64,000 bases of DNA from Gracilariopsis chorda (Eukaryota; Rhodophyta; Florideophyceae; Gracilariales; Gracilariaceae). Below the pieces are notes generated by a model that saw nothing but the letters and a program-made list of their open reading frames with translations, was not told the DNA's origin and searched no databases. Every line of letters starts with the position of its first letter. Positions within the stretch are counted from its first letter, which is position 1. The stretch lies in contig NBIV01000314.1 in assembly GCA_003194525.1 (NCBI GenBank), forward strand, positions 1 to 64,000, given 5' to 3'. Of this stretch, positions 18,968 through 45,209 are shown one piece after another. The translations under genes were made by a program, and so were the position numbers.

Positions 18968-19284
18968 CTCACGGAGGGTTTTTAATTCCCCGACAACGGT
19001 GTCGTGGGCGGTTCACAAAGCGTGAGCCTGAGATTACAGGCAATTCCCCTGCGTCGGTGTTCTCGGAATTCTAGATAGAGGTGCTAGATCGCAAGTTTCT
19101 TAGGCAAAAGCTCAAAAATACTACGAAAATGATAGATTCGGCTAGTTTCTGGCGCTTGCCAAGTAAAAAAAAAATTTGGAATTCACACTTCCATATCTTA
19201 CAGAGCCTTGCCTCACCTGCACTGCGCATCGCTAGTTTCAAGTTTGGAGCAAGTTCATGTCCACTAAAAGCTAGATACAGATCT

Positions 19285-19325
19285 CAAAATGGCGCTGGCC
19301 ACGCAGCGGCCAGCACCATTTCGAG
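19285..19325. repeat. Subterminal hairpin of the large element, copy 1
   Basis: AAATGGCGCTGG and its complement CCAGCACCATTT flank a short GC-rich loop about 230 bp inside the element end. Copy 2 has the same hairpin at 44934-44974 with a better-paired stem. Preservation of pairing despite base changes suggests a structural role, for example as a recombinase binding site. Confidence 0.6.
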
Positions 19326-19523
19326 CACCCAACCAAAACTAACATTTCTATTTCCATCTTTTGAGTTTCAAACTTCATACTGCCCTATTTTGACTTCCAA
19401 CTCATCCTCAGGAAATCATCTGGGTAGCTCTCTCCGTTCTCACACACCCGACGCACCGCGCATCAGATTCCAATACCACCCATTCCGTCGTCCTAACAGC
19501 CTCAACGACACTCATAAACAACA

Positions 19524-20210
19524 CTAGCCTTCTTCTCCCTCTTCCCTCTTTCCATGCCTCCTCTTCAACCGACTCTTAACCTCCAATCCTTCTTCTTCCT
19601 TCTCCTCCAACCTCCTTTTCACGCCCCCTCTACCTCCAGGAGTAACCGGAGACCCACTCCCGACAGCACCTCCCACCCCACCTTCCCCTCCACCTCCATA
19701 CATCTTGTTCCACATATCCTCGACTAGATGCACAGCCCTATCCACCAGTAAAAGCCGCTTCTCCAACTCCAAAATCCGCCCTGTCAACTCCTCATTCTCC
19801 TTCCAAAGCCTCCCCAGCTCCTCTCCCACACACGCCACAACCCCATCGACGTGCTGCTCTGCCCATACCCCAGCCTCCCTCACCTTCCAGCGCAACTCAG
19901 CCACAGCACCCATCTGCACTCCTTCCTCCGACGCACTCAGAACCATCCCTCCCAACTCCACGACAACCTCCTCAATACACTCATCCAAACGCTCCTTAAG
20001 CCCTCCCCCAGTCCTCCTCAGTATTTCCTTCACATCGCGGTAGAACCCATCCATTCGTCTCCCTCCACCTCCCCCTACCCCTCCTCCTCGACCACTCTCG
20101 CCCGCCCCTCCCTCCCCACCATCCCCTCTTATCATCGTCCCAACCCCAAGCTTACTGACCGAAAATTGCAAATAGTAGTCATGGTACGTGTGGATGTTCT
20201 CAAATGACAT
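19524..20210 (-). CDS. Gly-rich and coiled-coil protein of the large element
   Basis: This frame of 228 codons has a Gly/Arg-rich segment near residues 28-52, a helical middle with heptad-like LWKENEELTGRILELEKRLL, a second Gly-rich stretch and a basic tail (KSRLKRRHGKREEG). No known domain. The tail could be a nuclear signal. The gene is absent from copy 2, where the deletion removes everything from here to the middle of the ParB-like frame. Confidence 0.5.
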   Translation of the reverse strand: MSFENIHTYHDYYLQFSVSKLGVGTMIRGDGGEGGAGESGRGGGVGGGGGRRMDGFYRDVKEILRRTGGGLKERLDECIEEVVVELGGMVLSASEEGVQMGAVAELRWKVREAGVWAEQHVDGVVACVGEELGRLWKENEELTGRILELEKRLLLVDRAVHLVEDMWNKMYGGGGEGGVGGAVGSGSPVTPGGRGGVKRRLEEKEEEGLEVKSRLKRRHGKREEGEEG

Positions 20211-20876
20211 GAATCTTCAAGAGTCGTGAATAAATGTTCAAGAGTCGTGAGTGAATTTTCAGAAGTCGATAATGAATGTCCCACCTCTTCACTTGAACCA
20301 ACTTTGTCACTGCTTAAATGCATAGCTTATCATTTTCACATTTGCTCACCCCTTGTCCTTCCCAACACACAAAACAATATTTTGAACCTCTACACGATAA
20401 TGCCTTCACCCTCTTCACTCTTCTTCATACATCAAACACGCCACAATGCATTCATGTATGAAAAGAACCAGTACTTTCTATATCAACAGAATGGATAATC
20501 GCGGTATTTGGCTATAAAAACGGGATCCTTCACATCTGCACAATCACCGTCAATTCTCATACATAATCCCGTACTCAATTTTACATCCATTCGTGTTTCA
20601 TATGAGCTGCCCCTTCATTCTTCCCTCCAATACACCTATCCCAAGTTTCTTCTCATACTTGTAGACCTTTTTTTATGGAATATAACAAAGTGAAATCTTT
20701 GTATACATCATCCGTTCATTATTACGAATCTTTCCAATGAAGCCGCATAAAAAGTAATCCCCATCGTAGTAAACCTCTCCCATTCACTATAAACATTCAC
20801 TATAAACATTCATCATAAAGATCAAAACGCAATCATCAGATTTAGCAAACGAATATCACTAGTTTACTTATCATTA
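20211..20876. other. AT-rich stretch within the large element
   Basis: No gene is evident. A short degenerate repeat around 20210-20270 (AAGAGTCGTGAATAAATGTTC-like units) and TATAAACATTCA repeats near 20790-20820 are visible. It separates the Gly-rich gene from the end of the long minus-strand reading. Confidence 0.4.
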
Positions 20877-22502
20877 TCAATCGCTTTCATCGTCCTCACC
20901 TATCAGACCCTCTGCTCCTTTAGGAACCATTTCACCCTCATCGTCATCCTCCTGTTCATAATCTCCATCAGTGTTCATTTCCGCTGGTTTCAGTATATTC
21001 TCATCGTCCCCCTCATCCGACGGGTTCTCACCTTCGGCTTCTTGCATAACTACATCTCTATCCTCAGCTTCATCTCCCCGCTCCTCTTCCCCTCCTCCCA
21101 CCTCACATAAATCGCCACGGTCCTCTTCATCATTAAAAAAGGGAGGGCGAAAACCGCTTTGCCTATGCACCACATCCGGGAGATTGTATCCCTCGGGTAA
21201 AAATTACATATGGTATCGCATGCAATATCCTTTCGCTATTGCATCATTGTACCCAGCCCCAGCATGAAATACATCCCCTCTTCCAATGAACACAGAAAAC
21301 GGTGGAACTCTGAACTTCCGAACCATCATAGAAGCCGAAAGCTCTTTCAAGTTACCCCGTGTCATTGTTAGAGTATGTGACCGTTCACAAACCCAAATAA
21401 TGAACGCATCCGGTCCCGATGCCATTGCAAAATACCCCGGGTTCACATTTCTCATCCTGTCATTCTCCGTCAAACCCCTGAAATCCGTGTGTAGCACCTG
21501 CCTCGGACAATCCTCTCCAGTACAAAGGATACGGCCACCCGTGTGAGGGGCATACATCGTTCCACCTTCAGACAACCCGAGAGCTGCTGCAATCTGACCG
21601 ATCTTTGCATCCACCATGGCTCTCTTTGGAGCAAGAACCGCACCGTTTTCAAAGTCTTCAATTCTGTCCGCAATCCCTCGTTTGGTTGTGATGAAACGCC
21701 CCACCGCCTTGATAGCATTCTTAACATCCTTTACCCCTCCTTCATTGATGATCATATTCCAGAAAACACGATTAGCTTCGTTCGTGATATCCTCTTGCGA
21801 AACAAAGTCGCGTTCGAAGAAGTCCATCAGTTCTCCTATAATATCTTCGTCCATTTGCAGTCCGCTCTCCGAAGCCTCACTCGCCATGCCTTCATCTGTC
21901 CCGAAATTCTCCAGCACACAAAACCCTCTCTCCGAAATCTCCACTCTCTTCTTCGCAAATTAAACACGAGCCAAGTCCTCTCTCTCAAAAGTGGCCATCC
22001 ATAACGCTTCTTCTTCATTCGATGCCGTTCCTGATGACGGCACCTTCACGCCCAGCACTGCACGTGTCGTAGTACCCATCTCTTTGTGCATTTTGTGCGA
22101 CCCACGCCAGTATACAGCATGATGATCCATTCGGAAGTCATCAGGTGATAGGCACTCCGCCCGATGGTGCTTCCTCAGATTTATCCTCTGCATCCATGGA
22201 TGGGAATGCTTCACTGCATTTCTGCTTGCAGGCCACTCACTCGGCAACGAGTAAACCAGGTCCACCCAAGACATGTCCGCTCCCATAGCCAGCTCTCCTG
22301 GCGTACTTAAGCCAGCTGGAAGCTTGTCAGGATTCTTATCGTCAAAGCTGCCTGCGGTTTGCTGCTCCTCTGCCTCGTCTTCCTCATCATCCACAAAGTC
22401 TTCCTGAGCTTCATCCTCGCTTGACTCGAGCACAATGATCTCCTGTGCTGCCAACCACCTCTTCAAATCTCTCCTTTCCATACTACGCAGCACCTCCACC
22501 AC
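20877..22502 (-). pseudogene. 2-oxoglutarate/Fe(II) dioxygenase-like protein with acidic tail
   Basis: One reading frame runs across this stretch, interrupted by two stops. It has an acidic N-terminal linker, then the domain at 21204-21944 and an acidic C-terminal tail. The domain has a His-x-Asp pair (LHTDF, about residues 152-154 of the 246-codon frame), a distal His in GDVFHAGAGYN (about residue 227) and an Arg in KGYCMRYHM (about 243). That is the HxD...H...R signature of the double-stranded beta-helix dioxygenases, which use Fe(II) and 2-oxoglutarate. The sub-family is unclear. Relatives in protists and viruses are mostly uncharacterised; DNA-base oxidation of TET/JBP type is one possibility, suggested only by the company of a DNA methyltransferase. 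Absent from copy 2. Confidence 0.65.
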
Positions 22503-23464
22503 CTCCTGCTAGATACCAAAGCCAGGTCGCTTCACACCAGGTGCAGTCAGCTTACGATTCGATCCTCTCTGCCTCTTCACCGGTGGCTCAAAATCAACTG
22601 ACTCTTCACCTTCATCTTCGTCCAGGACCTCCACTGAGCAGCTTCCTCATTCAGACCAAGCAACTCGATCACGTCCACATCGGCCGCAGAGGGCGCAGCA
22701 GCAGTAGCATCCTGTCCCGGCATGCCCGACAAAGTGCTGGACAACGTCCTACGAACCTCTTTCACCTTATTACTCACTCTGGACTCCAGTGAACTGCGTT
22801 TCCCTTTAGTATAACACTTCCCCAGACGAGATATGATATAGTTTGACACAGTCTGGTCAGAATCGCCGATGGTAACCGTGGTATTCATCACTTCCTGTAC
22901 ATTCTTTTTCTCTTTCATGGAACTCCCCAGCTCACTGCAAATGTCATACGTTCTAGAAGCGCAGTCGAAGAAGTACTTTCGGAAATCCTCAAACGGTCCC
23001 ATCTTCACAGTGGCCGCCGACCTCACTCGAACATGCGCCTGTAGACATTGGAGAGTAAAACGAAACTTATCCCCTGACATTCGAAGCAGAATATCACTAG
23101 ACACATGAGTGATTCCAATTTGAGGCGTCTCATGCCACACCACATCGGAGAACTCTAACAGACCGGGATTACGCGCAAACTTCAGAGCAAGAGCGGAATG
23201 GCAATTGAAATGACGTATCTTCCCTTCTTTCTCTTTCGTCTCACTGCTCCACAACAACCCCATGATTTGGCTTGGTTTAAGCTTCGACAACTCATACCCA
23301 TCCTGCTCCATGCCATTACGAATAAACTAAACAGCAGTGTGAATCTTATCTGCGAAGTACATCACCAGAACATTGGAGCTCAAATCATTCAACGTCTTCC
23401 CCAGCCACAACACCTCATTCAATTTCATTCTCCGGCCGTCGTTCCGTTCCCAAAGCGTGACGTT
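22503..23464 (-). pseudogene. Middle part of the long minus-strand reading of the large element
   Basis: It continues the reading from the ParB-like region: DGRRMKLNEVLWLGKTLNDL, then a 244-codon segment (22577-23311) of mixed alpha/beta character without a known motif, then a basic segment (PPVKRQRGSNRK) in a neighbouring frame. The consistent frame on both sides suggests that 24706 down to 20877 once formed a single large protein of roughly 1270 residues. This copy is broken. Confidence 0.5.
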
Positions 23465-24706
23465 CTAACTAGCATTAATCCGTGCCCATCCCGCACCATC
23501 CTGCTTGAGGTCCAGGAGAACAATCACTCGATGGAAGCCTTCCACCAAAACCACAGGAACAATCAAACGCCCACTCGCATCAATAGCGTCAAGAACCGGC
23601 ACATCCTCCAACAGAGCCATCGCAATCGACCCAAGAGAAAGGAGCCATCCGAATTTCCTCAGTTTGTTCGAAGTATCTCGAAGATGTTTGTCATTCTTCG
23701 AACGAACCATGTTCTTCCGAAATCGAATGTTGTGGATATCGATTACGCAATTGTGCTGGTCATAATCATCGCGATTGATGTCTAAGACCCCCAAACTGTT
23801 ATCCACCTCTTCCGAAGGAACAACATCACCGTCATCATATAAAACCCTCTCCTCCGGATCAAGATCGTTCCTGGAGAGTACAGGCACCTCTATGACGTCA
23901 TCATCGGTGCTTGCTCCGACTTCAGGGCCTCCTCGGGTTCCCGAGCCGCCCGTGAGAGCACTTGATGTTCCTCCACCACTCTGACGGGTTTTCACCGGAA
24001 CCTCTCCACCGCTCTCAAGGCTTTTCACCGGCGCTTTGGTCACCAAAATGCTTGATGGTGTACCAGCAACAGCAGGAAGGCGCGTGACTTGTCTTGCAGT
24101 GGTCCTGGAAGCTGTACTTCTGTGGAAAGTCTTCACATTTGGTCCTGACTGCGGTAGAATCGACTCATTCCCCTCTCCGCCTTCATTTTTAACACTCATC
24201 ATTGCAGTGTCCCATGCATATAAACCCGCTGAAACCATCTCCTTCAAAGTTGCGGGTGGTTCCTCGGGACCCCCAAAAACACAAGGGTACTTCTCATCTT
24301 GGTGTGACGAAATATTTGTCTTAAAGATAACCACCAAGTCCTCTCCAGGTCTCTGCGTAGAGGACAGGGGATGGTTGTGTAGAGAACGACAAAGTCTCGT
24401 CCCCGGTCCCCCAGCAACCCCCACACCGCGCAATTTCGCCTCTCCTACCTTCACCTTCGCATCACTACTCCCAACTCGTACGAACAGATTGACCTCCGCA
24501 TCGCCCTTAAGCACCTGACCCGTATTGCCCCCAATTGATGGCTCAGGGTGGCTGGCAGTTTGGGTGGCGCCCCGACTGTTTGCTCTGCCTCGCGTGGTTG
24601 GCATGTCGATAACACGTCTCTTCGGCGAAACAGGCTTCCTCGGAGTCCGTTTCCGTGATTGTGCGTTTATCTTATTCCCAGTGGAATCCATGGCTGAGTA
24701 CTTCAA
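23465..24706 (-). CDS. Basic N-terminal region and possible ParB-like domain of the large element
   Basis: This 413-codon frame starts with a basic, DNA-binding-like segment (KRTPRKPVSPKRRVIDM), followed by a Ser/Gly-rich linker. The last 110 residues carry NCVIDIHNIRFRKNM, LRKFGWLLSLGSIAM and LVEGFHRVIVLLDL. The arrangement, ending in a (E/D)GxHR-like motif, recalls the ParB/sulfiredoxin fold, often found beside DNA methyltransferases in phages and plasmids. The match is by pattern only. Copy 2 keeps the first three quarters (43718-44745) and loses the ParB-like end to its deletion. Confidence 0.45.
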   Translation of the reverse strand: MKYSAMDSTGNKINAQSRKRTPRKPVSPKRRVIDMPTTRGRANSRGATQTASHPEPSIGGNTGQVLKGDAEVNLFVRVGSSDAKVKVGEAKLRGVGVAGGPGTRLCRSLHNHPLSSTQRPGEDLVVIFKTNISSHQDEKYPCVFGGPEEPPATLKEMVSAGLYAWDTAMMSVKNEGGEGNESILPQSGPNVKTFHRSTASRTTARQVTRLPAVAGTPSSILVTKAPVKSLESGGEVPVKTRQSGGGTSSALTGGSGTRGGPEVGASTDDDVIEVPVLSRNDLDPEERVLYDDGDVVPSEEVDNSLGVLDINRDDYDQHNCVIDIHNIRFRKNMVRSKNDKHLRDTSNKLRKFGWLLSLGSIAMALLEDVPVLDAIDASGRLIVPVVLVEGFHRVIVLLDLKQDGAGWARINAS

Positions 24707-24902
24707 AGGTCGCGCTTGCGTTTTCTTGGCACCCGCTGACCTCGAATGCTCCCGTGATCACGTATTCTTGGTTCCAAAGAGATGGACATAAGCACTATAT
24801 ATTGTTTTCAAGACGTTTCATGACATCCATTGTCGTCAACGTAGCACCCCTGCAATTCCCCTCCCAATTACTTGTAATGCAAAAAGAATTTGATAATTTT
24901 TT

Positions 24903-25050
24903 GGTCGAGGACCATGGTCTGGGGTGTCGTGGTGCTCCATCGCGAACATGATGGAGCGCCAGGACGCGAAATTTTAACTAAAATTCATGCCTGGCGCTCC
25001 ATCGTGTTCGCGATGGAGCACCATGACACCTCGGACCACGGTCCTCGACC
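24903..25050. promoter_or_regulatory. 148-bp nested palindrome between the two divergent gene blocks, copy 1
   Basis: Two arms of about 61 bp (24903-24963 and 24990-25050) flank a 26-bp AT-rich spacer. They are inverted complements with few mismatches, beginning GGTCGAGGACC and ending GGTCCTCGACC. Each arm contains its own hairpin, GCTCCATCGCGAAC and GATGGAGC. It sits between divergent genes (starts near 24706 and 25096). It could be a bidirectional control region, a replication or recombination site, or a protein-binding centre. Copy 2 keeps the structure at 43399-43546. Confidence 0.85.
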
Positions 25051-25095
25051 CAAAACGAAGAGAAACATTATCCCAAGGAAACGGGTTCATTCAAG

Positions 25096-26118
25096 ATGCA
25101 CGGAACCGGAGAAGAGCTTATTGATGCTTATCTCGCAGTGCGTGATGAATACGCAGCAACGAGGCAAAATTTGGATGAGCCGAGAAGTTTGAAGCACACC
25201 GACTTTGTGGAGTTCGCGGTACAAAGTTGCAACGTTCATGACTCTGCCAAGAAAATGTTTCTCACTCTCATCGGACCGGATTACATCTCTTATTCGGACT
25301 CCGAGCTCCGTAACAAGTCTCTCAGAGGCCCTCCACGTCAACTCTATCTTATGGCAAGAGTGGTGGACGTAAAGGACCGTGAAGAAGACAGGCGTGTAAG
25401 GGACTTTTGGAAGTTTTATTGTAAAAAGGAAGGGCTTAAAGGAATTCCCCGTAACGTGTTGCTATCTGCCTTTTGCAATTCCCGTGTTCTGGGAGCAACC
25501 AAGAAATCTTCCGCTTTCCACACGGATCCTTGCACCGACTTTGAAATGGTCATTGGGTTGTCTATGGTGCAACAGATTGCCGTGGATAAGAAAGGAAGTG
25601 GTAGGAAGAGGAAAAGGGGCATGGCAGCTAAGAAGTTCTCAAAAGTGAGATTGTCGGACATGACCCAGAGTCAGAGATTCGGGTATGGTGTGCAGCTTGT
25701 GACCAGGGCTTGGGATTGTTTCGCCCAATTTCTCTGGTTTCCCAACGTTGAGGTTATGATCTTGCCTTACATTCGACTCGACTATATCAGTGTAGTCTTC
25801 ACCGATATCGCACAATGCTCCATGGGCTTCCAACACAAAGATTGTTCCAAACAGTTTGTGGAGGAGAAGAACGTCACAACAGTAGAAGAAAACGTTTCCA
25901 AATGGGCATGGAATCTGCCGGACCCACTGGATACAGCGCTTCGCCTTTGTGCCAAATAATACCTTGGTGAACTTTCTAATGTGGTGGTACAAGAGAAACT
26001 GTTCGACATCTCTGCTCCCAGCAAATTGGATGCCCTCAAAAGGTTCACCATCACGAGAAGGAGACTTTCCCCCCTGCGGTTTGAGAACTTTAGTGAATCT
26101 CTTGTCACTACGGGTTAA
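25096..26118 (+). pseudogene. Conserved 340-residue protein of the large element, unknown function
   Basis: In copy 2 (42331-43353) this frame is open for 340 codons; in copy 1 it is interrupted. It starts MHGTGEELIDAYLAVRD and is mixed alpha/beta with several Trp and Cys residues, a basic GSGRKRKRGMAAKKF tract near residue 160, and a PYIRLDYISVVFTDIAQC segment. I do not recognise a family. The same frame carries on, past shared stops, into the methyltransferase-SET reading, so it could be the N-terminal part of one large protein or an upstream separate gene. Confidence 0.5.
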
Positions 26119-26319
26119 GAGGCCATAAAGCCTCTGAAGCTCATTGCATTGCATGGAAGCAATGTCAAAGTACATCAAGCTGTGAAACCAGAGTCCGCAG
26201 AAGACGTTGACATCATTATGGAGCCGGTAGAAACTGGTACGGCTGGTGGTGGGAACGAACGTGCTGAGCGTGTGGAAGGTGGTGATCAGGGTGAGTTGGA
26301 AGAAGTGGAAGAGATATAG

Positions 26320-28269
26320 ATGGTAGAGGATACGAAACGTGGTACTGTGGAACCTGGTACTGCACCAAAGGCCACTGAAGGACTGCAGACAACAGCTTTG
26401 TCGCAGAACTTATCGTATGATGTCGAAGGCACGGGGATTCGTGCACCACCGTACTCTACGATTTTGGATGATGTCATACCTTACAAGTATTGTGAGAAGG
26501 AGATGTCCCGCAACTTCCGTCTCCACAACTGCAAGTTCGAAAATCTCATCGAAGTTGACGACAACAAGTCTGGCGAAAGCGAGGTATCTATTGAAGGAAG
26601 GGTACAGTTCTTGCTTTCCGATCCGCCATATGGGAGTCGTTCTGAGCGTTGTTTGGAGAACAGCGAACACGATATTCTGACAGAGAAGGGCATGAGCAGG
26701 TCAGCGAGGAGGTCGTCAAAGCTTCTACGTCCTGGTGGACATATTATACAGTTCTGCTCATGGGATCAGGTACCGTTGTGGCGGGATGTGCTACGGAAAG
26801 TTACCTACATGGATGACTCTGATACGATGCTTTACTTCTTTTTCTTCGACGAACAGCCCCTCCATTTCGTACGGTCTTCAGGTAATACGATGGCTAACGT
26901 TGGGAGAAGAAGTTGCCAGTTGCACCAGACGACAGAATACGCCGTACATGCTGTTCGTTCTGGAGTTCCTTATGCACAACAGCACCGGATGGTCAACTAT
27001 GAGAACTTCAATTATGTTGCTTCAAGATACCCAGCGTATCATGCAATCATGGATCAGATGCCGCCGATGTCAAATAGTGAGATGCTCATGTGGTCTGTGA
27101 AAAACCCGGATGATAAGTACACGAGGAAGAGGGTGCGACCGGAACAGAAGTGTAGGGTACTGCTGAAATAGCTGATTTGCAGGTTCAGTCAGCCAGGAGA
27201 CCTCGTGGTCGACATGTTTGCCGGAACGTTCTCGACAGCGATGGCGTGCATAGAACTGCCCAAGCATCGGAAGTTTGTGGGGTGTGAACCGGACAAAGCT
27301 TGCTTTGAACACGCCAGGCATGCCGCTATTGTTCGCTTCGCTTCCATAATACGGGAAGGACACACGGATATTGAGAAGAGCCAGGAGCTTGGAAAGATGG
27401 CCCGTTGTGTTTCCTCTGCATTCCCAATAGGGAGAAGCAGGCACACCGTGTTATGGAGGGCTGTCAACGGATTTCCACCGTACCAAATTCTTCCCCCACA
27501 CCTTGTCGACTTTCTCTCCACTTTGTGGCAAAGTGAAATCCTACGGAAGTTGGGAAGGAAGAAAGCTATGGATGGATGGCCGAGGGAGCTGCAGGGAAGA
27601 ATGAATCTGGAGAACATGAAGTCTCTATTGGCAATGGAGGCTGTGCAATATGGGTTGCGAGTGGGCAAGTCTACTATTCGTCACGAAAAGGCTGGTGTTG
27701 GAGTGTTTGCAACTCGTCGAATTGCTGCAGGCGAGGTAGTGTGCTATTTCTACGGGACGTTGGTTTATCATGACCTTTCGAATCGGAAAGAAGTGCACAA
27801 GACCTACGGGGAGGGAGTCATGGGTGTGAAGAAGGATCGCTTCCGGAAGTATGCGGTGAAGATAGAAGTCTACGGTCAACAGTTCCAATCACTTCCGCAT
27901 CGAAAACAGCTGACGAATTGGCATGGAAAACAAGCAAACCCCATTTTATGGGTGGTTCCTGCCCCTTTTTGTATTGCGGGGTATATCAACTATCCAAAGT
28001 ACGTGGAAGGGGATAAACAGTTAGATGCCATGGTGGATGGCCTCGTGAAAAAAAGGAAGGGTAATGTGCGAATGAAACGGACACCGAAAGTGGGACGAAA
28101 ACCAGGGGGTATAACGGACACCGAAAGTGGGACGAACACCAGGGGGAATAACGGACACCGAAAGTGGGACGAACACCAGGGGGAATAACGGACTACAAAC
28201 TTATTAAGATGGAGGCGACAGCCAACATAGAGCAAGGAAAGGAACTCTTCGCCACATACGGTGATGTTT
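26320..28269 (+). pseudogene. DNA amino-methyltransferase (beta class) joined to a SET domain, copy 1
   Basis: One frame covers both domains. The first has FLLSDPPYG at about residues 98-105 (motif IV, DPPY: catalysis on an exocyclic amino group) and, further on, VVDMFAGTFSTAMAC at about 295-309 (motif I, S-adenosylmethionine binding). Motif IV before motif I marks the beta group of N6-adenine/N4-cytosine methyltransferases. From about residue 445 follows a SET-like domain: GVGVFATRRIAAGEVVCYFYG (about 459 on), later CIAGYINYPKY in the place of the usual INHS, and finally ANIEQGKELFATYG (about 28222-28262), the typical SET end. A 37-bp tandem repeat lies between the last two blocks. It may add a DNA mark and a histone lysine mark from one protein. 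Broken in this copy. Confidence 0.75.
28078..28188. repeat. 37-bp tandem repeat, three units, inside the SET coding region (copy 1)
   Basis: Units at 28078-28114, 28115-28151 and 28152-28188 each begin CGGACACCGAAAGTGGGACG. The second and third are identical and the first has two changes. The repeat lies between the IN motif and the terminal block of the SET domain. Copy 2 has the same three units at 40261-40371, so the array predates the split of the two copies or has been kept equal by conversion. The unit length is not a multiple of three. Confidence 0.9.
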
Positions 28270-28536
28270 AGGACTGGCAAACCCATTTGAATGTGGAGGA
28301 TGGAACGATAGTCATCGATTAGTTTGGTTGTTATAAACCTTTGTCCACAGCTTGGCTAAAGGGCGAAGTTTATTATTTGAACGGATGTGTAGTCCTAAGT
28401 TAGGAGAACATCACTTTTCAGTAAGGATAGAAGATACAAAGCGATATAGATGTGACACAGAAACGTCCATTTTAGGTACCACGGAGGATTGTAATCTCAA
28501 GATTTCACAAAAAACAAAGATTTTTGTGCACATTGG

Positions 28537-32469: not shown

Positions 32470-32870
32470 TACCCCAGTGGGGGGTGTTATCGCCCGTCAG
32501 ACGGGGTTCAGATGCGGCGGCGGCCATGGCCAGAGCCGGATGAGCACCATCCACGGCATTCGATAACGGGGTTGACGTGGAGTTCCGGGGTTCCCAGGGT
32601 GGTTTTGGAGTCCTAGACGAGGCACCCCCAGCATGGCTGAATTTAGCCCTAGTCGGGATCCGAGAAATGAACCGAACTTCGGGGTTATCTCCACCATTGT
32701 GGGAGCGACTGCGCGTAGTCGCAGGCTTTGCAGAGGAGGGCTTCCTTGATATGAGGGCCAACCGTTCCGACGGGAAAACAACGCAACTTCCGGAAAACAA
32801 AAAAAAAAGAAACAAAACTTCGAAAGAGGGAACCAAACACTAAAACCGATTCTAAGTCAGGAGACCACTT
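32470..32870 (-). mobile_element. 5' leader of element A between the nested element and the 5' LTR
   Basis: About 400 bp of the untranslated leader of element A lie here. A possible primer-binding site lies at its LTR end. An A-rich run is present near 32800. No gene is seen. Confidence 0.6.
32850..32867 (-). other. Primer-binding site of element A
   Basis: Three bases inside the 5' LTR the minus strand reads TGGTCTCCTGACTTAGAA. TGG complements the CCA end of a tRNA, and the position is right. I cannot tell which tRNA it matches. Confidence 0.6.
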
Positions 32871-33674
32871 TGTAGTGCAATGCCCGGAAGCGAGAGTGCA
32901 TTGAAAGACGTTCGGGATCTCTCCTCGTTAGAGGTGAGCCTAGTTGGGTAGAGCCCTCCCAGGAGTGGCACCACTATGTCGGGTTGTAAAGCCGAGGCCA
33001 CCCGTCGCGACTTGCGCAGGGAGGTTGAGGCAATAATCGGGTATCCGCAAGAGCGGTGTATGGGGGTGGTCGTCCTCTAGAGAGAGGTGAGGTTCCCACG
33101 TTAGTGGCACGCGCGAACACGAGCCGTGGGTAGCGGGAAAGCCACCCTGTAAAGGGAAAAACAAGGGGGAGCTGAGTCACGAGTGTCGTGACGAAGAATA
33201 ACGGCAGTGCCGGTAAATAAACCTTATACAAGGCGAAAACCAAGAAAGTGGGAATAACAGTCCGAATACTCGGGTCCTTTAGATAGGCAAGGGGTTAGAC
33301 TTCCCGTAGGCGACGGTGCTTCCCTCCAAAGAGGAGTAGAGAACACGCCAAGGGGGTGAGGTCTAGAGCCAATTCCCCAGGTTGGGGTCACTTTTTGGGG
33401 AAGGTTTACTGGTGCGACGGCATCCCCCCGGCGCACTAAGTACTAACCATCCCAGAAATGGGTGTAAAAACAATAAATAGAATTAACTAAATTACTCTAC
33501 TTTGGTGGTTCATGCCCACTACTGTGGCCAACCACCAATTGACTCTTCCGTGTCCCACGTGTCAAATCCACCATCAGTGGTCGGCGGTCGTAGTTCATGC
33601 AATGACTACATTACCGAAACGTTCGGGAAATGAACCAAGTACCAAGAATCCCTCTCTGAGGGCATTGCACTTCA
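32871..33674 (-). repeat. 5' LTR of element A
   Basis: This 804-bp LTR aligns with 8745-9540 end to end, with the same TGTAGTGCAATGCCC and GGGCATTGCACTTCA termini. Differences are mostly transitions, estimated by eye at 4-5%. It is followed by the right-hand TAAGC. Confidence 0.9.
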
Positions 33675-33679
33675 TAAGC
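33675..33679. repeat. Target site duplication TAAGC, right copy
   Basis: Matches 8740-8744. It shows that element A landed in the integrase coding region of element B. Confidence 0.9.
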
Positions 33680-35972: not shown

Positions 35973-36396
35973 GTCGGTCTTCTCGTTATGCTAGTTTGGC
36001 ATTCAAAAGGCAAAGAATTAAAATGAACGAGTAACGACTATTCAAACACAATTTTGAATGAATCAAATTTCTCAAAATAATTCCATACATAGCACAGATT
36101 TAGTTTGCTTGGGACAAAAGACTAGCAGTATACTAGACATTTCCCAGTTTCTTTGGAGGTAAAACTAGCGCCAGACTCCACTAATACCTACCCTCTCAGG
36201 TGCACGTGGATTCCAAATCTTACTGGTCCTGAGCGAGTGCCCCTTCAAATAGCAAAATAGATTAGATAGAATAAATAGAATAGATACATAGCGTTTACAT
36301 AACCAAATAGCTTTGGCTTTCTATCACCCGTTGCCCTAACTGCTCCCTGCATCGCATACTCTACCGCACGCCCTACGAAAAGACGCTCTGCATCAC

Positions 36397-37395
36397 GTGC
36401 ACCACCTCATCTACGTGCGCCGTAATATTACGCTCCCCGATATCCCACTCCGCCACCACCCTCCCTTCTCTGTTTCCAAGCATCCCGTTCTCCGTTCTCC
36501 TTCCCCCGCCATGATACCCTGTTGCCATCCCCATTGCACCTTCTATGACCGCACCGCGTTCTCTCTCCAGAGTCACCAACGCAGATACCCTCATCGAATC
36601 ACCCCCGACAAACGCCCTTCCACCTCCGCCAACACTCCCGTCCAGTTCCTTCCAAGTACCAAGCGACGAAAATCCGTTCCAAACCTCTCCACCATTCCTC
36701 CTCCCACTCTCTCACACCGCCCCTCCGAAAACGTCCCCCTCGCCGAAGATGAAGCCTATCAAATCCAACAGGCCTCTCTTTCCCTCCAAACACAAGACGC
36801 ACACCTCATGGCAAGTCACGCCCTCTGTTCAGTCTCCTCCTCAAACCCACCTTCCCATACCTCGTCCCAATCCCAGTCCCCTCTCCTCAACAACCCCCAT
36901 CTCGAGCAATTCGTCCTCTGCATCTTCTCCATCGCTTCTTCCTTCAGCACACGCAAAGCCGACGAACTCATCTCCCTTCTCAACCACCCGGACATCTCCA
37001 AGTCAGCCTGCCAGAAATCTATCTCCTCCGCAAAGCAGTGCCTCGCACTCCAAAAACACCTCCTCAAGGAACGCATCAGCTTTACTGGCTTCCTCCCTCT
37101 CACATTCACCGACGAGCACAACTCCTTCTCCGCAACCCTCTTCCAAAAACGCACCACAGACGTCCTGAAGCAACCACTCGCTCTCGCACACTTCAACAAC
37201 ACCTTCTTCCAACCCGTCTCCCAATCTTCCCCTTCCTCCTCTTCCACCCCCGCCTTCGCCCATCCTATGGCCGCAGCCTTTGGAAAAAAAGCCGTTCCTG
37301 CCTTTAAACAAGCCATCATGCAGTGCCACATCAATGACATCGTCTGGCACACCCCCGAAACAACTGGTATGGAATCTTTCGTCGGTCTCGTCTAG
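36397..37395 (+). CDS. Zinc-finger protein of the large element, copy 2
   Basis: 332 codons, nearly identical to the copy at 31054-32052, with the same N-terminal finger (CCHPHC ... HQRRYPHR, where a late Cys has become Tyr). The preferred start is the Met before IPCCHPHC at 36511. The Ser/Pro-rich linker and the helical block are preserved. Convergent with the basic coiled-coil gene; the two stops abut as in copy 1. Confidence 0.55.
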   Translation: MHHLIYVRRNITLPDIPLRHHPPFSVSKHPVLRSPSPAMIPCCHPHCTFYDRTAFSLQSHQRRYPHRITPDKRPSTSANTPVQFLPSTKRRKSVPNLSTIPPPTLSHRPSENVPLAEDEAYQIQQASLSLQTQDAHLMASHALCSVSSSNPPSHTSSQSQSPLLNNPHLEQFVLCIFSIASSFSTRKADELISLLNHPDISKSACQKSISSAKQCLALQKHLLKERISFTGFLPLTFTDEHNSFSATLFQKRTTDVLKQPLALAHFNNTFFQPVSQSSPSSSSTPAFAHPMAAAFGKKAVPAFKQAIMQCHINDIVWHTPETTGMESFVGLV

Positions 37396-39912
37396 TTATA
37401 CTCCGATATGTCTGCCACCTCACTCAAGAGCTCCTGCATCAATTCATATCCCCTTCACATCACCCTTCTCAACTTCTGAGACGCATTCCGCTGAAAATGT
37501 ATCTCCGAAAACCTCACCCTACTCGGATACCTCCCAACCTCCTTCTCCCCCTCTTCCTGCCCCGAACACGCAGACTTCATCCCACATTCGTCCTCCAACA
37601 TCCCACGCAAAACAAGAATGGCCCTCATTCAGTGCGCCATCTCCGCAATCTTCCGTTTCGAAGGTATCCACAGCGCTACCTTCGCTTCTCTACTCCCATT
37701 CCTAGCTATAAAACGCAGGTTACCGTCATCGCAACGTTCATTCTCCAATTCTTGATGATGTAGTCCTCTCACCCTCTCCCACGCCACCCCAAGTATTCTC
37801 TCCACCGCAAGCCGAAGATACTCCCCGTACAACTAGAAAATAACAACTGCCTTCTTCCTCCACGCCCCATATCTGTGTCCATTGCTGTCAAAACAAATCC
37901 GATCCACGCATCCAAACGAGCCAAATGCATCACTGTCCCATCAATGTACTCCATCTTTCCCTCCCTTTCCGTCCCCACCTCATATCCCATGAATTCTTCC
38001 AATACTTCCACCGCAGCCCCGTTCTTGAAGTACATGTCCCCTTCACTAAACTCTCTTAGCCGCCCAGCAACCTTAAATCCAGAATACGTAAGATTTTCGA
38101 TTGTTTTCATCCTCCAAGAACATAAACTACCGCTCTTCGCCTCCCCATCCCCCTTAAACTTCGTCTTTGCTTCCTCTAACTACTTCTTCAACTCAATGTC
38201 TAGCTCCGTCCCCTCTCGCCGTCTCACACGTCTGGGTATCAATTCATATACAAGCAACGAAAACATTTTGTCCCGTGCCGCAAGCTTCCGAACCCGAATC
38301 ACATCACTCAACTTCTGCTTCATACGTTGCCTCAAACACCTGTCCGCAACAACTTCCCCCACGCATTGATCCTTCCTACCCGCTTCATGAATCGACTCCC
38401 ATCTCTCCCCCTCAATCTCAACGCCAACCAAGTCCTTCAATAGTTCATTACTTCCTCCTCGCGACGAAGGCGTGTACGACCTCATCTCAGACGCAATCTC
38501 AAACGGACATCGAGGTACAATCTTCTTTCCTCCCACACCAAACACACTCCCCTCTTTTCCCTTCCCCAATACTTCGCATCGATTCGTCAAGTTCCTTTAG
38601 ACACCCTCCGAAGTAAAACAAAGCTCCGATACCTCCACCTTCGCATAGTACAACAACCTATCATATAGTACCCTTGCAAACCCATAAAACCCTCTTGCAC
38701 ATCAACCACATACTTCCTACGCCCTCGCAATTCCTTTTCACCTTCAGATCCCTTTCTCTCCCCTCGTCTCACCTTCATCCCTTCCCATAAGCTATCTATC
38801 AGCAAATTCTTCTCGCTCATTTCTTGTCTCATCCTCTTCAGTTCCTCTTCCGTCAGCTTCGGCGACATCTTTAGGCTGCAGTGGTCCCCTTTGATCTGCC
38901 CGAGTTCTGCCTTCAACATATTGACCCTCTCAACTAACGAAGATCGAGACATCACACCGATGTAGTCATTCCCTGCATCTCCCAAAATATTGACAGGCAG
39001 CCGTCGCTCCTCAGCAGGCTCACTTGGCGACCGATGAACACTTCGTTTCCTCTCTCGCATTCCTTCCGGAGTCCGCGGCGTTCTGCTTCCTTTATCACTT
39101 CCCAAGTCTTGAGCCATTTGCACCTTTCGCGCCCGTACCGGGGTGCTCGTACGTTCTCCGCTTTTCGATGCTTCCTGTACTCCATCCGTCGCTCTGACCA
39201 CTTCTTCCACTCCTCGCGTTTCCTTTAAATCAGAGCGGCGTCCCACTACTTCCTTTATTCTCTCTCTCGTCCATCTCCCCTTCACAATGTGATCCTCTTC
39301 GTCCCCATCACTCTCTACCAAAGAGACATTTACCTCTCCTCCATATTGGTTTCCCCTTGGGGCCCCACCTCTCTTCAGCGCAACTGCCTCTTCCATTTGT
39401 TTCCTTTCCGGCATTTCTTCATCTTTATTTCGGTCTTTGACCCGCGCATTTGCTTTCAGCCCTCCCTGATGTGGTACCTCTTCTCTTCTCGTAGCAACCC
39501 ACTCTTTCTTACCCTCCACCCCACCACCAGATCCAGGCACAGATCGCTGTCCCCGAACCGAATCTCTCCTGCGTGCTACATGCGCATGGGCATGAGCCTT
39601 CAAATTCTCACTCGTCGTGCGCTCGGATCCGAGGTTCTTTGCCCCACCTCTTCCCTTTCTCTTCGAAGCACCTTCTCTTGACCTCCTCCCCGAAAATCCG
39701 CTCCTGGGAACACATGATTTCGCTTTCGTTCCACTCGCGGTTCGCTCCTCAATAGCCTTTCGCCGCGTCTTAGGCGCACTCGCCATACCACCCCTTGCCG
39801 GGCCTCGCTTCTTTCCCTTCGGCGCCATTATTGGAGTCAAACCTCTTGCACAAGTTGCTAGTGATGCTCTGGGATGGCGCACGCCGTGTGTTGTCCGGGA
39901 AAATCTCGCCAC
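37396..39912 (-). pseudogene. Basic coiled-coil protein of the large element, copy 2
   Basis: This mirrors 28537-31053. The open part 38587-39912 (441 codons) differs from copy 1 at only about four residues. The downstream part has the segment CEVLGKGKEGSVFGVGGKK (38180-38590) in a longer open stretch than in copy 1. The high identity contrasts with the methyltransferase region, where the copies differ more. Confidence 0.5.
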
Positions 39913-40190
39913 CCAATGTGCACAAAAATCTTTGTTTTTTGTGAAATCTTGAGATTACAATCCTCCGTGGTACCTAAAATGGACGTTTCTGTGTCACATC
40001 TATATCGCTTTGTATCTTCTATCCTTACTGAAAAGTGATGTTCTCCTAACTTAGGACTACACATCCGTTCAAATAATAAACTTCGCCCTTTAGCCAAGCT
40101 GTGGACAAAGGTTTATAACAACCAAACTAATCAATGACTATCGTTCCATCCTCCACATTCAAATGGGTTTGCCAGTCCTAAACATCACCG

Positions 40191-42129
40191 TATGTGGCGA
40201 AGAGTTCCTTTCCTTGCTCTATGTTGGCTGTCGCCTCCATCTTAATAAGTTTGTAGTCCGTTATTCCCCCTGGTGTTCGTCCCACTTTCGGTGTCCGTTA
40301 TTCCCCCTGGTGTTCGTCCCACTTTCGGTGTCCGTTATACCCCCTGGTTTTCGTCCCACTTTCGGTGTCCGTTTCATTCGCACATTACCCTTCCTTTTTT
40401 TCACGAGGCCATCCACCATGGCATCTAACTGTTTATCCCCTTCCACGTACTTTGGATAGTTGATATACCCCGCAATACAAAAAGGGGCAGGAACCACCCA
40501 TAAAATGGGGTTTGCTTGTTTTCCATGCCAATTCGTCAGCTGTTTTCGATGCCGAAGTGATTGGAACTGTTGACCGTAGACTTCTATCACCACCGCATAC
40601 TTCCGGAAGCGATCCTTCGTCACACCCATGACTCCCTCCCCGTAGGTCTTGTGCACTTCTTTCCGATTCGAAAGGTCATGATGAACCAACGTCCCGTAGA
40701 AATAGCACACTACCCCACCTGCAGCAATTTGACGAGTTGCAAACACTCCAACACCAGCCTTTTCGTAACGAATAGTAGACTTGCCCACTCGCAACCCATA
40801 TTGCACAGCCTCCATTGCCAATAGAGACTTCATGTTCTCCAGATTCATTCTTCCCTGCAGCTCCCTCGGCCATCCATCCATAGCTTTCTTCCTTCTCAAC
40901 TTCCCTAGAATTTCACTTTGCTACAAAGTGGAGAGAAAGTCGACAACGTGTGGGGGAAGAATTTGTTACGGTGGAAATCCGTCGAAAGCCCTCCATAACA
41001 CGGTGTGCCTGCTTCTTCCCATTGGGAATGCAGAGGAAACACAATGGGCCATCTTTCCAAGCTCCTGGCTCTTCTCAATATCCGTGTGTCCTTCCCGTAT
41101 TATGGAAGCGAAGCGAACAATAGCGGCATGCCTGGCGTGTTCAAAGCAAGCTTTGTCCGGTTCACACCCCACAAACTTCCGATGCTTGGGCAGTTCCATG
41201 CACGCCATCGCTGTCGAGAACGTTCCGGCAAACATGTCGACCACGAGGTCTCCTGGCTGACTGAACCTGCAAATCAGCTCTTTCAACAGTGCCCTACACT
41301 TCTGTTCCGGTCGCATCCTCTTCCTCGTATACTTCCCATCCGGGTTTTTCACAGACCACATGAGCATCTCACTATTTGACATTGGCGGCACCTGATCCAT
41401 GATTGCATGATACGCTGGGTATCGTGAAGCAACATAATTGAAGTTCTCATAGTTGACCATCCGGTGCTGTTGTGCATAAGGACCTCCAGAACGAACAGCA
41501 TGTACAGCGTCTTCTGTCGTCTGGTGCAACCGGCAACTTCTTCTCCCAACGTTACCCGTCGTATTACCTAAAGACCGTACGAAATGGAGGGGCTGTTCGT
41601 CGAAGACAAAGAAGTAACGCATCGTATCAGAGTCATCCATGTAGGTAACTTTCCGTAGCACATCCCGCCACAACGGCACCTGATCCCATGAGCAGAACTG
41701 TATAATATGTCCAACAGGACGTAGAAGCTTTGACGACCTCCTCGGTGACCTGCTCATGCCCTTCTCGGTCAGAATATCGTGTTCGCTGTTCTCCAAACAA
41801 CGCTCAGAACGATTCCCATATGGCGGATCGGAAAGCAAGAACTGTACCATTCCTTCAATAGATACCTCGCTTTCGCCAGACTTGTTGTCGTCAACTTCGA
41901 TGAGATTTTCGAACTTGCAGTTATGGAGACGGAAGTTGCGGGACATCTCCTTCTCACAATACTTGTAAGCTATCACATCATCCAAAGTCGTAGGGTACGG
42001 TGGTGCACGAATCCCCGTGCCTTCGACATCATACGATAAGTTCTGCGACAAAGCTGTTGTCTGCTGTCCTTCAGTGGCCTTTGGTGCAGTACCACGTTCC
42101 GCAGTACCACGTTTCGCATCTTCTACCAT
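40191..42129 (-). pseudogene. DNA amino-methyltransferase joined to a SET domain, copy 2
   Basis: The methyltransferase part is one continuous frame of 387 codons (40966-42129). It contains FLLSDPPYG (motif IV) and VVDMFAGTFSTAMAC (motif I), so both hallmarks lie in one protein. The same frame resumes with the SET part (40261-40899): GVGVFATRQIAAGGVVCYFYG and CIAGYINYPKY. The terminal ANIEQGKELFATYG block lies beyond the 37-bp repeat. The copy supports the view that methyltransferase and SET belong to one gene. It is also broken. Confidence 0.75.
40261..40371. repeat. 37-bp tandem repeat, three units, copy 2
   Basis: Units at 40261-40297, 40298-40334 and 40335-40371, the inverted counterpart of 28078-28188. 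The unit nearest the methyltransferase carries the same two variant bases as its counterpart in copy 1. Confidence 0.9.
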
Positions 42130-42330
42130 CTATATCTCTTCCACTTCTTCCAGCTCACCCTGATCACCACCTTCCACACGCTCAGCACGTTCGTTCCCAA
42201 CACCAGCCGTACCAGTTTCTACCGGCTCCATAATGATGTCAACGTCTTCTGCGGGCTCTGGTTTCACAGCTTGATGTACTTTGACATTGCTTCCATGCAA
42301 TGCAATGGGCTTCAGAGGCTTTATGGCCTC

Positions 42331-43353
42331 TTAACCCGTAGTGACAAGAGATTTTCTAAAGTTCTCAAACCACAGAGCGAAAAGTCTCGTTCTCGTGATA
42401 ATGAACCTTTTGAGGGCATCCCATTTGCTGAGAGCAGAGATGTCGAACAGTTTCTCTTGAACCACCACACTAGAAAGGTCACCAAGGTATTCTTTGGCAC
42501 AAAGGCGAAGCGCTGTATCCAGTGGGTCCGGCAGATTCCATGCCCATTTGGAAACGTTTTCTTCTACTGTGGTGACGTTCTTCTCCTCCACAAACTGTTT
42601 GGAACAATCTTTGTGTTGGAAGCCCATGGAGCATTGTGCGATATCGGTGAAGACTACACTGATATAGTCGAGTCGAATGTAAGGCAAGATCATAACCTCA
42701 ACGTTGGGAAACCCGAGGAATTGGGCGAAACAATCCCAAGCCCTGGTCACAAGCTGCACACCATACCCGACTCTCTGACTCTGGGTCATGTCCGACAAAC
42801 TCACTTTTGAGAACTTCTTAGCTGCCATGCCCATTTTCCTCTTCCTACCACTTCCTTTCTTATCCACGGCAATCTGTTGCACCATAGACAACCTAATGAC
42901 CATTTCAAAGTCGGTGCAAGGATCAGTGTGGAAAGCGGAAGTTTTCTTGGTTGCTCCCAGAACACGGGACTTGCAAAAGACAGATAGAAACACGTTACGG
43001 GGAATTCCTTTAAGCCCTTCCCTTTTACAATAAACCTTCCAAAAGTCCCTTACACGCCTGTCTTCTTCACGGTCCTTTACGTCCACCACTCTTGCCATAA
43101 GATAGAGTTGACGTGTAGGGCCTCTGAGAGACATGTTACGGAGCTTGGAGTCCGAATACGAGATGTAATCCGGTCCGATGAGAGTGAGAAACATTTTCTT
43201 GGCAGAGTCATGAACGTTGCGAACTTGTACCGCGAACTCCACAAAGTCGGTGTGCTTCAAACTTCTTGGCTCATCCACATTTTGCCTCGTCGCTGCGTAG
43301 TCATCTCGAACTGCAAGATAAGCATCAATAAGCTCTTCTCCGGTTCCGTGCAT
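42331..43353 (-). CDS. Conserved 340-residue protein of the large element, copy 2
   Basis: This open frame runs from MHGTGEELIDAYLAVRD to a stop, without the interruption seen in copy 1. It ends FALWFENFRKSLVTTG. About 95% of residues agree with copy 1 by eye. Composition is that of a globular protein with a basic loop (GSGRKRKMGMAAKKF). No family is recognised. It starts about 45 bp from the palindrome at 43399-43546 and is probably driven from there. Confidence 0.55.
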   Translation of the reverse strand: MHGTGEELIDAYLAVRDDYAATRQNVDEPRSLKHTDFVEFAVQVRNVHDSAKKMFLTLIGPDYISYSDSKLRNMSLRGPTRQLYLMARVVDVKDREEDRRVRDFWKVYCKREGLKGIPRNVFLSVFCKSRVLGATKKTSAFHTDPCTDFEMVIRLSMVQQIAVDKKGSGRKRKMGMAAKKFSKVSLSDMTQSQRVGYGVQLVTRAWDCFAQFLGFPNVEVMILPYIRLDYISVVFTDIAQCSMGFQHKDCSKQFVEEKNVTTVEENVSKWAWNLPDPLDTALRLCAKEYLGDLSSVVVQEKLFDISALSKWDALKRFIITRTRLFALWFENFRKSLVTTG

Positions 43354-43398
43354 CTTGAATGAAGCCGTTTCCTTCGGATTATGTTTCTCTTCGTTTTG

Positions 43399-43546
43399 GG
43401 TCGAGGTCCGTGGTCCGAGGTGTCATGGTGCTCCATCGCGAACACGATGGAGCGCCAGGCATGAATTTTAGTTAAAATTTCGCGTCCTGCCGCTCCATCG
43501 TGTTCGCGATGGAGCACCACGACACCTCGGACCATGGTCTTCGACC
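43399..43546. promoter_or_regulatory. 148-bp nested palindrome, copy 2
   Basis: The same structure as at 24903-25050, in inverted orientation: long arms with an internal GCTCCATCGCGAAC hairpin and an AT-rich centre. Total length is conserved. The base changes between copies leave the arms mostly paired. Confidence 0.85.
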
Positions 43547-43717
43547 AAAACATTATCAAATTCTTTTTTAAAAGCAAGTAAATGGGAGGGGAACTGCAGG
43601 GATGCTACGTTGACGACAATGGATGTCATGAAAACGATATATAGTGCTTACGTCCATCTCTTTGGAACCAAGCATACGTGATCACGGGAGCATTCGACGT
43701 CAGCGGGTGCCAAGAAA

Positions 43718-44745
43718 ATGCAAGCGCGACCTTTGAAGTACTCAGCCATGGATTCCACTGGGATTAAGATAAACGCACCATCACGGAAACGGACTCCGAA
43801 GAAGCCTGTTTCGCTGAAGAGACGTGTTATCGACATGCCGATGACGCGAGGAAAATCGAAGAGCCGGGGCGCCACCCGAACTGCCAGCCACCCTGAGCCA
43901 TCAATTGGGGGCAATACGGGTCAGGTGCTTAAGGACGATGCGGAGGTCAATCTGTTCGTACGACTTGGGAGTAGTGATGCGAAGGTGAAGGTAGGAGAAG
44001 CGAAATTGCGCGGTGTGGGGGTTGCTGGGGGGCCGGCGACGAGACTCTGTCGTTCACTACACAACCATCCCCTGTACTCTACGCAAAGACCTAGAGAGGA
44101 CTTGGTGGTTATCTTTAAGACAAATATTTCGTTACACTAAGATGAGAAGTACCCTTATGTTTTTGGGGGTCCCGAGGAACCGCCGGCAACTTTGAGGGGG
44201 AGGTTTCAGCAGGTTTATATGCATGGGACACTGCGATGATGAGTGTCAAAATTGAAGGCGGAGAGGGGAATGAGCCGGTTCCACCACAGTCAGGAGCAAA
44301 TGTGAAGACTGTCCACAGAAGTACAGCTTCCAGGACCACTACAAAACAAGTCAAGCGCCTTCCCGCTGTTGTTGGTACACCATCAAGCATTTTGGTGACC
44401 AAAGCGCCGGTGAAGAGCCTTGAGAGCGGTGGAGAGGCTTCGGTGAAAACCCGTCAGAGCGGTGGAGGAACATCAGGTGCTCTCACGGGCGGCTCTGGAA
44501 ACCGAGGAGGCCCTGAAGTCGGAGCAAGCTCCGATGATGACGTCATTGAGGTGCCTGTACTCTCCAGGAACGATCTTGATCCGGAGGGGAGGGTTTTATA
44601 TGATGACGGTGATGCTGTTCCTTCGGAAGAGGTGGATAACAGTTTGGGGGTCTTAGACATCAATCGAGATGATTATCACCAGCACAATTGCGTAATCGAT
44701 ATCTACAACATTCGATATCCGAAGAACATGGTTCGTGATGTTTAG
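43718..44745 (+). pseudogene. Truncated ParB-like-region protein, copy 2
   Basis: This corresponds to the start of the frame at 23465-24706, with the same basic N-terminus (KRTPKKPVSLKRRVIDM) and Ser/Gly-rich linker. It stops where the 4.2-kb internal deletion begins, just after NCVIDIYNIRYPKNMV, so the possible ParB-like end is missing. Confidence 0.6.
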
Positions 44746-44933
44746 CAGTGCCGTTGAGGCTGTTAGGACGACAGAATGGGTGGTATTGGAATCTGATGCG
44801 CGGTGCATCGGGTTTGTGAGAACGGAGAGAGCTGCCCAGATGAGTTCCTGAGGATGAGTTGGAAGTCAAGCTAGGGCATTATGAAGTTTGAAATTCAAAG
44901 ATGGAAATAAAAATGTTAGTTTTCGTTGGGTGC

Positions 44934-44974
44934 TCGAAATGGCGCTGGCTGCCCAGTGGCCAGCGCCATTTCGA
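44934..44974. repeat. Subterminal hairpin of the large element, copy 2
   Basis: TCGAAATGGCGCTGG and its exact complement CCAGCGCCATTTCGA flank an 11-base loop. It is the counterpart of 19285-19325 in copy 1 and pairs more perfectly. Confidence 0.7.
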
Positions 44975-45209
44975 GATCTGTATCTAGCTTTTAGTGGAGA
45001 ATGAACTTGCTCCAAACTTGAAACTAGCGATGCGCAGTGCAGGTGAGGCAAGGCTCCGTAAGATATGGAAGTGTGAATTCCAAAAAAAAAATTTTTAACT
45101 TGGCAAGCGCCAGACACTAGCAGAATCTATCATTTTCGTAGTATTTTTGAGCTTTTGCCTAAGAAACTTGCGATCTAGCACCTCTATCTAGCATTCCGAG
45201 AACACCGAC

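Follow-up and report, generated by a model that had tools for sequence, protein, structure and literature searches.

Plavaka DNA transposons are placed in the CMCT clade, with target-site duplications (TSDs) of 2 or 3 bp and, in most of the clade, CA..TG ends (Kojima 2025, PMC12730594). Fungal Plavaka elements occur with or without a gene for a TET/JBP oxygenase (PMC12730594), the published termini available are TGT..ACA (PlavakaA) and CATCA..TGATG (PlavakaB), and PF18759 has been used as the criterion for an autonomous Plavaka (PMC8290104). Chromatin-modifying genes are known from transposons, namely the fungal TET+ elements and SET-bearing Harbinger and MuDR (PMC12730594). Here we describe a transposon of the red alga Gracilariopsis chorda, two copies of which lie in a 64,000-nt stretch of contig NBIV01000314.1 (the window). 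We consider it likely that this is a Plavaka-type element carrying a self-serving kit for marking chromatin, in which a DNA writer and a histone writer are fused.

The first copy, W1, is an internally deleted Plavaka-type transposon of 13,426 bp on the plus strand at 19052-32477, delimited by its terminal inverted repeats (TIRs), TSD, empty sites and an alignment with 11 other copies. Comparison of the element ends places the left TIR at 19052-19074 and the right TIR, in which the outer 8 nt are degenerate, on the minus strand at 32455-32477. The second copy, W2, is inverted (35972-45210, minus strand, 9,239 bp); it has the same 2,380-bp deletion as W1 and a further 4.3-kb loss in its left half. 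The initial annotation had given 19053..45209 as the limits of the whole, and these ends are shifted here to those of the two copies. End comparison and empty sites define a TG duplication flanking W1 (19050-19051 and 32478-32479) and a TA duplication flanking W2 (35970-35971 on the low side, 45211-45212 on the high side). The genome of 91.3 Mb in 1081 contigs was searched for both sites; match counts given here and below are lower bounds, and all copies come from this one genome. When the flanks of W1 were joined, keeping a single TSD, the joint was spanned at 40/40 scored loci (the best 40 of 602 candidates), with the full 182 nt matched at 32 of them. For W2 the joint was spanned by 12 of 14 matches, the remaining two being the window's own halves. 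W1 and W2 are thus two separate transposition events in opposite orientation, and each is a dead, non-autonomous Plavaka-type insertion. A mobile element with its own termini, present as two inverted copies with different flanks, had been proposed from the window alone, and the TSDs, the empty sites and the dispersed copies described below bear this out.

The genome search for further copies with the same ends and empty sites, which had been suggested at the outset, found them. The left 3 kb of the element gave 42 matches of ~800 nt or more, 26 of which cover nearly the whole query, and another 14 of ~43 nt (best 40 of 189 candidates); the right 1 kb gave 40 matches including the window's own two (best 40 of 143 candidates). 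Ten further copies of this family (family 1) were taken on the basis that both ends were scored, so that with W1 and W2 twelve were compared. The ten range in length from 11.8 to 16.4 kb, with six at 15.8-16.4 kb; copies free of large deletions have ~16 kb and four genes that look intronless. The family ends are CGTCGGTG...CACCGACG or near variants of these, with a 2-bp TSD, and an identical TSD is kept in 9 of the 12 copies, those of the window included.

The initial annotation regarded the element as unclassified, with no recognisable transposase. The lack of a visible transposase in the window results from the 2,380-bp deletion in both of its copies, and the label itself cannot stand, as other copies encode a Plavaka transposase. 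The segment in question is present in 7 of the 12 family-1 copies, where it holds the body of a minus-strand transposase gene (gene E). Matches to the Plavaka domain PF18759 lie above the cut-off, with E 2.8e-19 for a 488-aa piece in copy C1, 1.1e-17 for a 955-aa frame in copy C7a, and 2.3e-21 for a 1138-aa frame in C550, a copy of the sister subfamily described below. By eye, a CPRC motif and H-H pairs can be seen in the transposase; the Plavaka criterion is a DDE triad with C(2)C and H(3-4)H. Altogether the Plavaka transposase has 114 matches in the genome, and the same search of 14 control genomes gave none (0/14). What W1 retains of gene E (30801-31938, minus strand) is the N-terminal zinc-finger-like part, the rest having been lost with the deletion at ~30796-30801. 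A zinc-finger protein had been listed separately: its open reading frame (ORF) is real and is this N-terminus of the transposase, while its zinc-binding pattern was seen by eye and has no Pfam match. Judged from its PF18759 domain, TIRs and 2-bp TSD, the element is classified as a Plavaka-type cut-and-paste DNA transposon.

The 2,380-bp deletion has one and the same junction in 5 of the 12 family-1 copies, W1 and W2 among them, and these five form a single clade with support 1.000. Gene C and the greater part of gene D (see below) are retained in every one of the five; gene B is full-length in three (W1, C7b and C90) and partly deleted in the other two (W2 and C151). This lineage has therefore multiplied without a transposase of its own and was presumably moved in trans.

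A sister subfamily, found on contig C550 and others, is 72-80% identical in nucleotide sequence to family 1 in BLAST segments. Its right ends are 99-100% identical at 40/40 scored places (best 40 of 141 candidates) and its terminus is identical in all 20 loci read, two of which have a common flank. At least 17 end pairs are readable, and the 12 that were fetched all have a perfect 2-bp TSD of variable sequence. The sister version of the left terminus has 187 genome matches at no more than 2 mismatches, compared with 1 for a reversed-pattern control. The near-identity of the right ends and the common terminus indicate that the sister subfamily moved very recently. Short derivatives of it are also present, on C12, C37, C64, C144, C34, C32 and others; in the six contigs named, their ends are separated by 6.7-8 kb. 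They keep a 608-aa methyltransferase frame in which the SET end is cut, and this frame is open in all rows but one. Truncated transposase frames of ~911 aa recur at 97-98% identity, which suggests that the derivatives have themselves been amplified.

One cargo gene, gene C, encodes in its relatives an N-terminal domain, a beta-class DNA amino-methyltransferase and a SET domain on one polypeptide. The initial annotation had recognised both enzymatic domains; both are present, as parts of a single fused protein. The methyltransferase matches the N6_N4_Mtase profile (PF01555), with E 9.5e-14 in copy C7b (L019:7019-9244) and, above the Pfam cut-off, 1.5e-17 to 3.5e-17 in the database homologs P0003, P0004 and P0008. 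SET (PF00856) is above the cut-off in the same three homologs (E 5.2e-7 to 2.6e-6) and below it in the algal copies scanned (E 0.0025-0.0028; C7b 0.0025), whose frames end before the end of SET. In the gene C alignment the motif DPPY precedes FAGTFST, the order that defines the beta class. Against solved structures, a gene C profile matched DpnA (6.6e-14), CcrM (6.5e-9) and MboIIA (1.1e-8), and its SET part matched KMT2C (6.6e-5). As the nearest profiles are DpnA, CcrM and MboIIA, the DNA target is probably adenine N6. Beyond the window and the copy on contig C199, the database homologs of gene C are 15 proteins (P0003-P0017) of 26-38% identity. The C199 copy, which is the best match found outside the window, corresponds to a public G. 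chorda protein, BWQ96_08558 (P0002), which is a fragment of the transposon methyltransferase gene annotated as a hypothetical protein.

In W1 only a remnant of gene C is left (25096-28322, plus strand, start and end set by comparison with relatives), comprising the N-terminal domain, N6_N4_Mtase and SET. It is broken by several in-frame stops, for example at 25957-25959 and 27169-27171, and a 37-bp tandem expansion lies at 28076-28193, near the C-terminus of SET. An intron at the stop near 27170 was considered and rejected: homologs P0002 and P0003 read through this position. The stop is therefore a nonsense one, and the genes appear to lack introns. In several sister copies gene C is open over 1,065 aa.

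The four genes have a fixed order, in which B (minus) diverges from C and D (both plus), and C and D converge on E (minus). We scored 53 loci with the methyltransferase-SET gene, out of 380 candidates, for the presence of one of the 114 Plavaka matches within 12 kb. There was such a match at 24 of the 53 loci, against a random expectation of 1.6, and in all 24 it lay downstream in convergent orientation. The same convergent Plavaka arrangement recurs at two distant loci, C249 and C1065, whose identity to the query P0003 is 36%.

Selection was assessed on an alignment of C550 with the 12 family-1 copies, using the net ratio of nonsynonymous to synonymous substitution (dN/dS) between the subfamilies. 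This ratio is 0.17 for B, 0.15 and 0.14 for two parts of C, 0.24 for D and 0.23 for E, whereas three wrong-strand control frames gave 1.05-1.12. The values show that all four genes were under purifying selection during the divergence of the subfamilies, with the cargo held about as strictly as the transposase; taken as a contrast to the control frames, this result is robust. A short ORF at the left end was rejected as a gene, the corresponding C550 ORF having a net dN/dS of 1.04.

Gene B of W1 is a remnant at 20877-24757 on the minus strand, with ParB-like, helical and 2OG-Fe(II)-like parts in open pieces of 430, 249, 182, 251 and 108 aa. In C550 the frame is open over 1,417 aa (L050:2453-6703, minus strand). 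By eye, the protein has one stretch with VLVDGYHR and NEVLWLGKTLN and a separate stretch with HxD..H..R, the pattern of 2OG-Fe(II) oxygenases. We take VLVDGYHR and its neighbouring motifs to resemble ParB/Srx. C550 has the HxD..H..R residues, as do most of the 11 family-1 copies with this region, the exceptions being two with the first H altered, one with the D altered and one in which R has become a stop. For the TET/JBP families gene B gave no Pfam match, and of a ParB reference set from phage records 3/15 matched weakly, none above the cut-off. The initial annotation had proposed both a 2OG-Fe(II) dioxygenase-like and a possible ParB-like domain; both assignments are plausible by motif only, and no profile search confirmed either. 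Gene D encodes a basic, coiled-coil-like protein, open over 821 aa in C550 (L051:711-3173), for which profile searches gave no family match. Its remnant in W1 (28621-30800, plus strand) has the C-terminal end cut by the 2,380-bp deletion. A match to LegAS4 (E 0.013) was taken as chance.

Starting from the transposon nature, the gene content and the selection documented above, we infer the biochemistry as follows. The transposase would cut and paste the element at its short TIRs. Protein C would methylate the DNA of the element itself, probably at adenine N6, and the SET domain on the same polypeptide would methylate a lysine of a nearby chromatin protein. These marks could sustain expression of the element, or label it so that excision is either favoured or prevented. 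Should the ParB-like and oxygenase-like parts of protein B hold, this protein may attach to the element and take away a competing mark set by the host. The original idea that the element writes or erases chromatin marks thus fares unevenly: writing is the best functional reading of the domains, and the eraser part has no profile support. A more specific version, in which a two-layer writer of DNA amino and histone marks is paired with the mark-removing, divergent protein B, and in which self-marking and not only mobility has been selected, is possible, though we hold it only tentatively. There is also a trace of what may be host marking. Singleton C-to-T changes are found at 2.2% of CpG compared with 1.19% of other C, a 1.9-fold excess, in a count that left out W2 and columns with fewer than 8 letters. 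This weakly fits host cytosine methylation of old copies, at a low level, and is no proof of it. A review cites reports of cytosine methylation from both Gracilaria and Gracilariopsis (PMC9861306).

Several observations weigh against a self-marking transposon and need to be set beside those above. Every family-1 copy examined has at least one of the four genes broken, and in the fetched sister copy C550 a single frameshift interrupts gene C. The per-copy counts of stops and frameshifts, used for the first of these statements alone, are upper estimates, since gene B of C1 scored 4 stops yet is open over 1,062 aa. Within family 1 the genes have a dN/dS of 0.69-0.86 and the control frames one of 0.76-1.03, a comparison that carries little information; values near the controls are expected, as copies decay after insertion. 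Between the subfamilies, B, C and D have a net dS of ~0.93-1.17, near saturation, and E one of 0.54; E also has the lowest net dN, 0.12 as against 0.20 for B. These differences preclude a ranking of the genes by constraint. At 29 of the 53 methyltransferase-SET loci there is no Plavaka match within 12 kb; six of these are copies with a missing or reduced transposase (C314, C151, C7, C34 and, twice, C32), and the other 23 lie outside the comparison. Among the 24 linked loci, 17 are near-identical rows of the sister subfamily and so are not independent events. The short sister derivatives, judged by their length, are without gene B while the methyltransferase is kept. A weak match of the gene C profile to an N4-cytosine methyltransferase (E 0.0099) leaves the target base ambiguous. 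For gene B, profile, database and structure searches gave no match under either the ParB or the 2OG name, and two word-limited searches, of 7,998 and 7,999 candidates, returned no homologs. Finally, the family ends match neither of the published fungal termini, of PlavakaA or of PlavakaB; this mismatch rules out those two fungal sublineages and not Plavaka as a whole.

The apparent loss of gene B from the short derivatives also bears on a different role for protein C, in which it controls transposition, the amino-methylated termini acting as a cutting switch rather than in chromatin silencing. Dam methylation acts as such a switch for bacterial IS10. The methyltransferase is nearest to bacterial adenine methylases, it stays beside the transposase, and it is retained in just those sister derivatives that appear to have lost gene B, all of which would suit a switch. 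The fused SET domain is left unexplained by it, however, and we regard this role, taken in place of chromatin marking, as unlikely.

The absence of an intact family-1 copy, and the within-family ratios close to those of the control frames, could also be taken to mean that the cargo consists of passengers, that is, host or bacterial genes that were picked up by a Plavaka transposon and are useless to it. This is largely refuted by the net dN/dS between subfamilies, which at 0.14-0.24 for every gene, compared with ~1 in the controls, shows a cargo constrained about as much as the transposase and identifies these as selected genes; moreover, none of the 24 linked loci departs from the common gene layout. 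We consider passengers very unlikely.

With ~16 kb, several intronless genes and a protein B without homologs, the element might also be thought an integrated virus, or a virus-like element using a Plavaka transposase, and there was one sub-threshold match to a capsid family (PF17236, E 0.047), which like that to LegAS4 was taken as chance. Against this, no capsid, packaging or polymerase family scored above the cut-off in the ORFs scanned, and viral contigs contained no relative of B or E when searched with six short peptide patterns for each. The gene C alignment did match 21 viral-contig loci, in the methylase part only (query residues 248-542), and P0003 matched none; a viral origin was rejected, and we give it only a slight chance. 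That W1 and W2 arose by inverted duplication of host DNA, as might be supposed from their lying close together and differing by only 2.8%, when either differs by 5.6-7.3% from the ten other copies, is excluded by their different TSDs and flanks, the empty sites of both and the many dispersed copies with the same ends, and has practically no probability left.

Other features of the window can be mentioned briefly. Between the divergent genes B and C of W1 lies a long hairpin (24898-25055) with 66-nt arms that are 91% complementary; a 191-nt stretch folds at -138 kcal/mol. It could give rise to hairpin RNA or act as an array of promoters. Copies of the hairpin elsewhere (best 40 of 108 candidates) are 92-97% alike, with arms 83-88% complementary, and on contig C263 three are found in tandem, 488 bp apart. 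In C550 no such hairpin was found. W1 is probably nested in a Gypsy-type long terminal repeat (LTR) retrotransposon on the minus strand at 8952-33583, whose putative LTRs are the direct repeats 8952-9456 and 33081-33583 and whose reverse transcriptase is at 14597-16264. Gypsy-type pol fragments also lie on either side of W2, at 33611-35820 (by eye) and 46133-47557 (Pfam), within 33611-35820 and 45213-47557, and the host site of W2 is a repeat with 12 other bridging places. A further transposase ORF, at 54039-55628, matches DDE_Tnp_1_7 (E 1.3e-21) and is presumably of piggyBac type.

The young, near-identical sister copies with open frames offer a tractable natural setting in which to learn whether a selfish element is able to set and keep up DNA and histone marks of its own. 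They also add a red alga to the hosts of cargo-carrying Plavaka families; neither 'red alga' nor 'Rhodophyta' occurs in the main text of a 2025 survey of eukaryotic adenine methylation (PMC12695648). A practical consequence is that transposon genes annotated as ordinary host proteins may inflate the count of DNA methyltransferases in G. chorda.

In the literature searched, which covered neither subscription papers nor Repbase reports, we found no report of an amino-methyltransferase-SET fusion inside a transposon, and each of the systems to which the element can be compared has part of its character. With fungal Plavaka it has in common a PF18759-type transposase, TIRs, a 2-bp TSD and cargo that possibly edits DNA marks. 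It differs in its red-algal host, in the ends CGTCGGTG..CACCGACG, and in its cargo, which is an amino-methyltransferase-SET protein and a ParB-like/2OG-like protein (both comparisons with the accessible part of PMC12730594). The Plavaka giant repeats of Amoebidium likewise have large, intron-poor gene clusters beside a Plavaka transposase, and some of their genes have red-algal matches; the genes named there, however, are tyrosine recombinases, and the accessible part of the paper does not mention a methyltransferase-SET protein (PMC11244446). Phytophthora HarbingerS and MuDR are also DNA transposons with a SET histone methyltransferase gene, but they belong to other transposase superfamilies, and an amino-methyltransferase fused to SET is not mentioned for them in the part of PMC12730594 that names them. 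The nearest functional idea is N4CMT of bdelloid rotifers, a eukaryotic case in which a beta-class, bacterial-type amino-methyltransferase is coupled to a chromatin module. It is encoded by the host, its module is a chromodomain reader, and it is thought to help silence transposons, whereas in G. chorda the methyltransferase lies inside the transposon and is joined to a putative histone writer (PMC8885841, accessible part).

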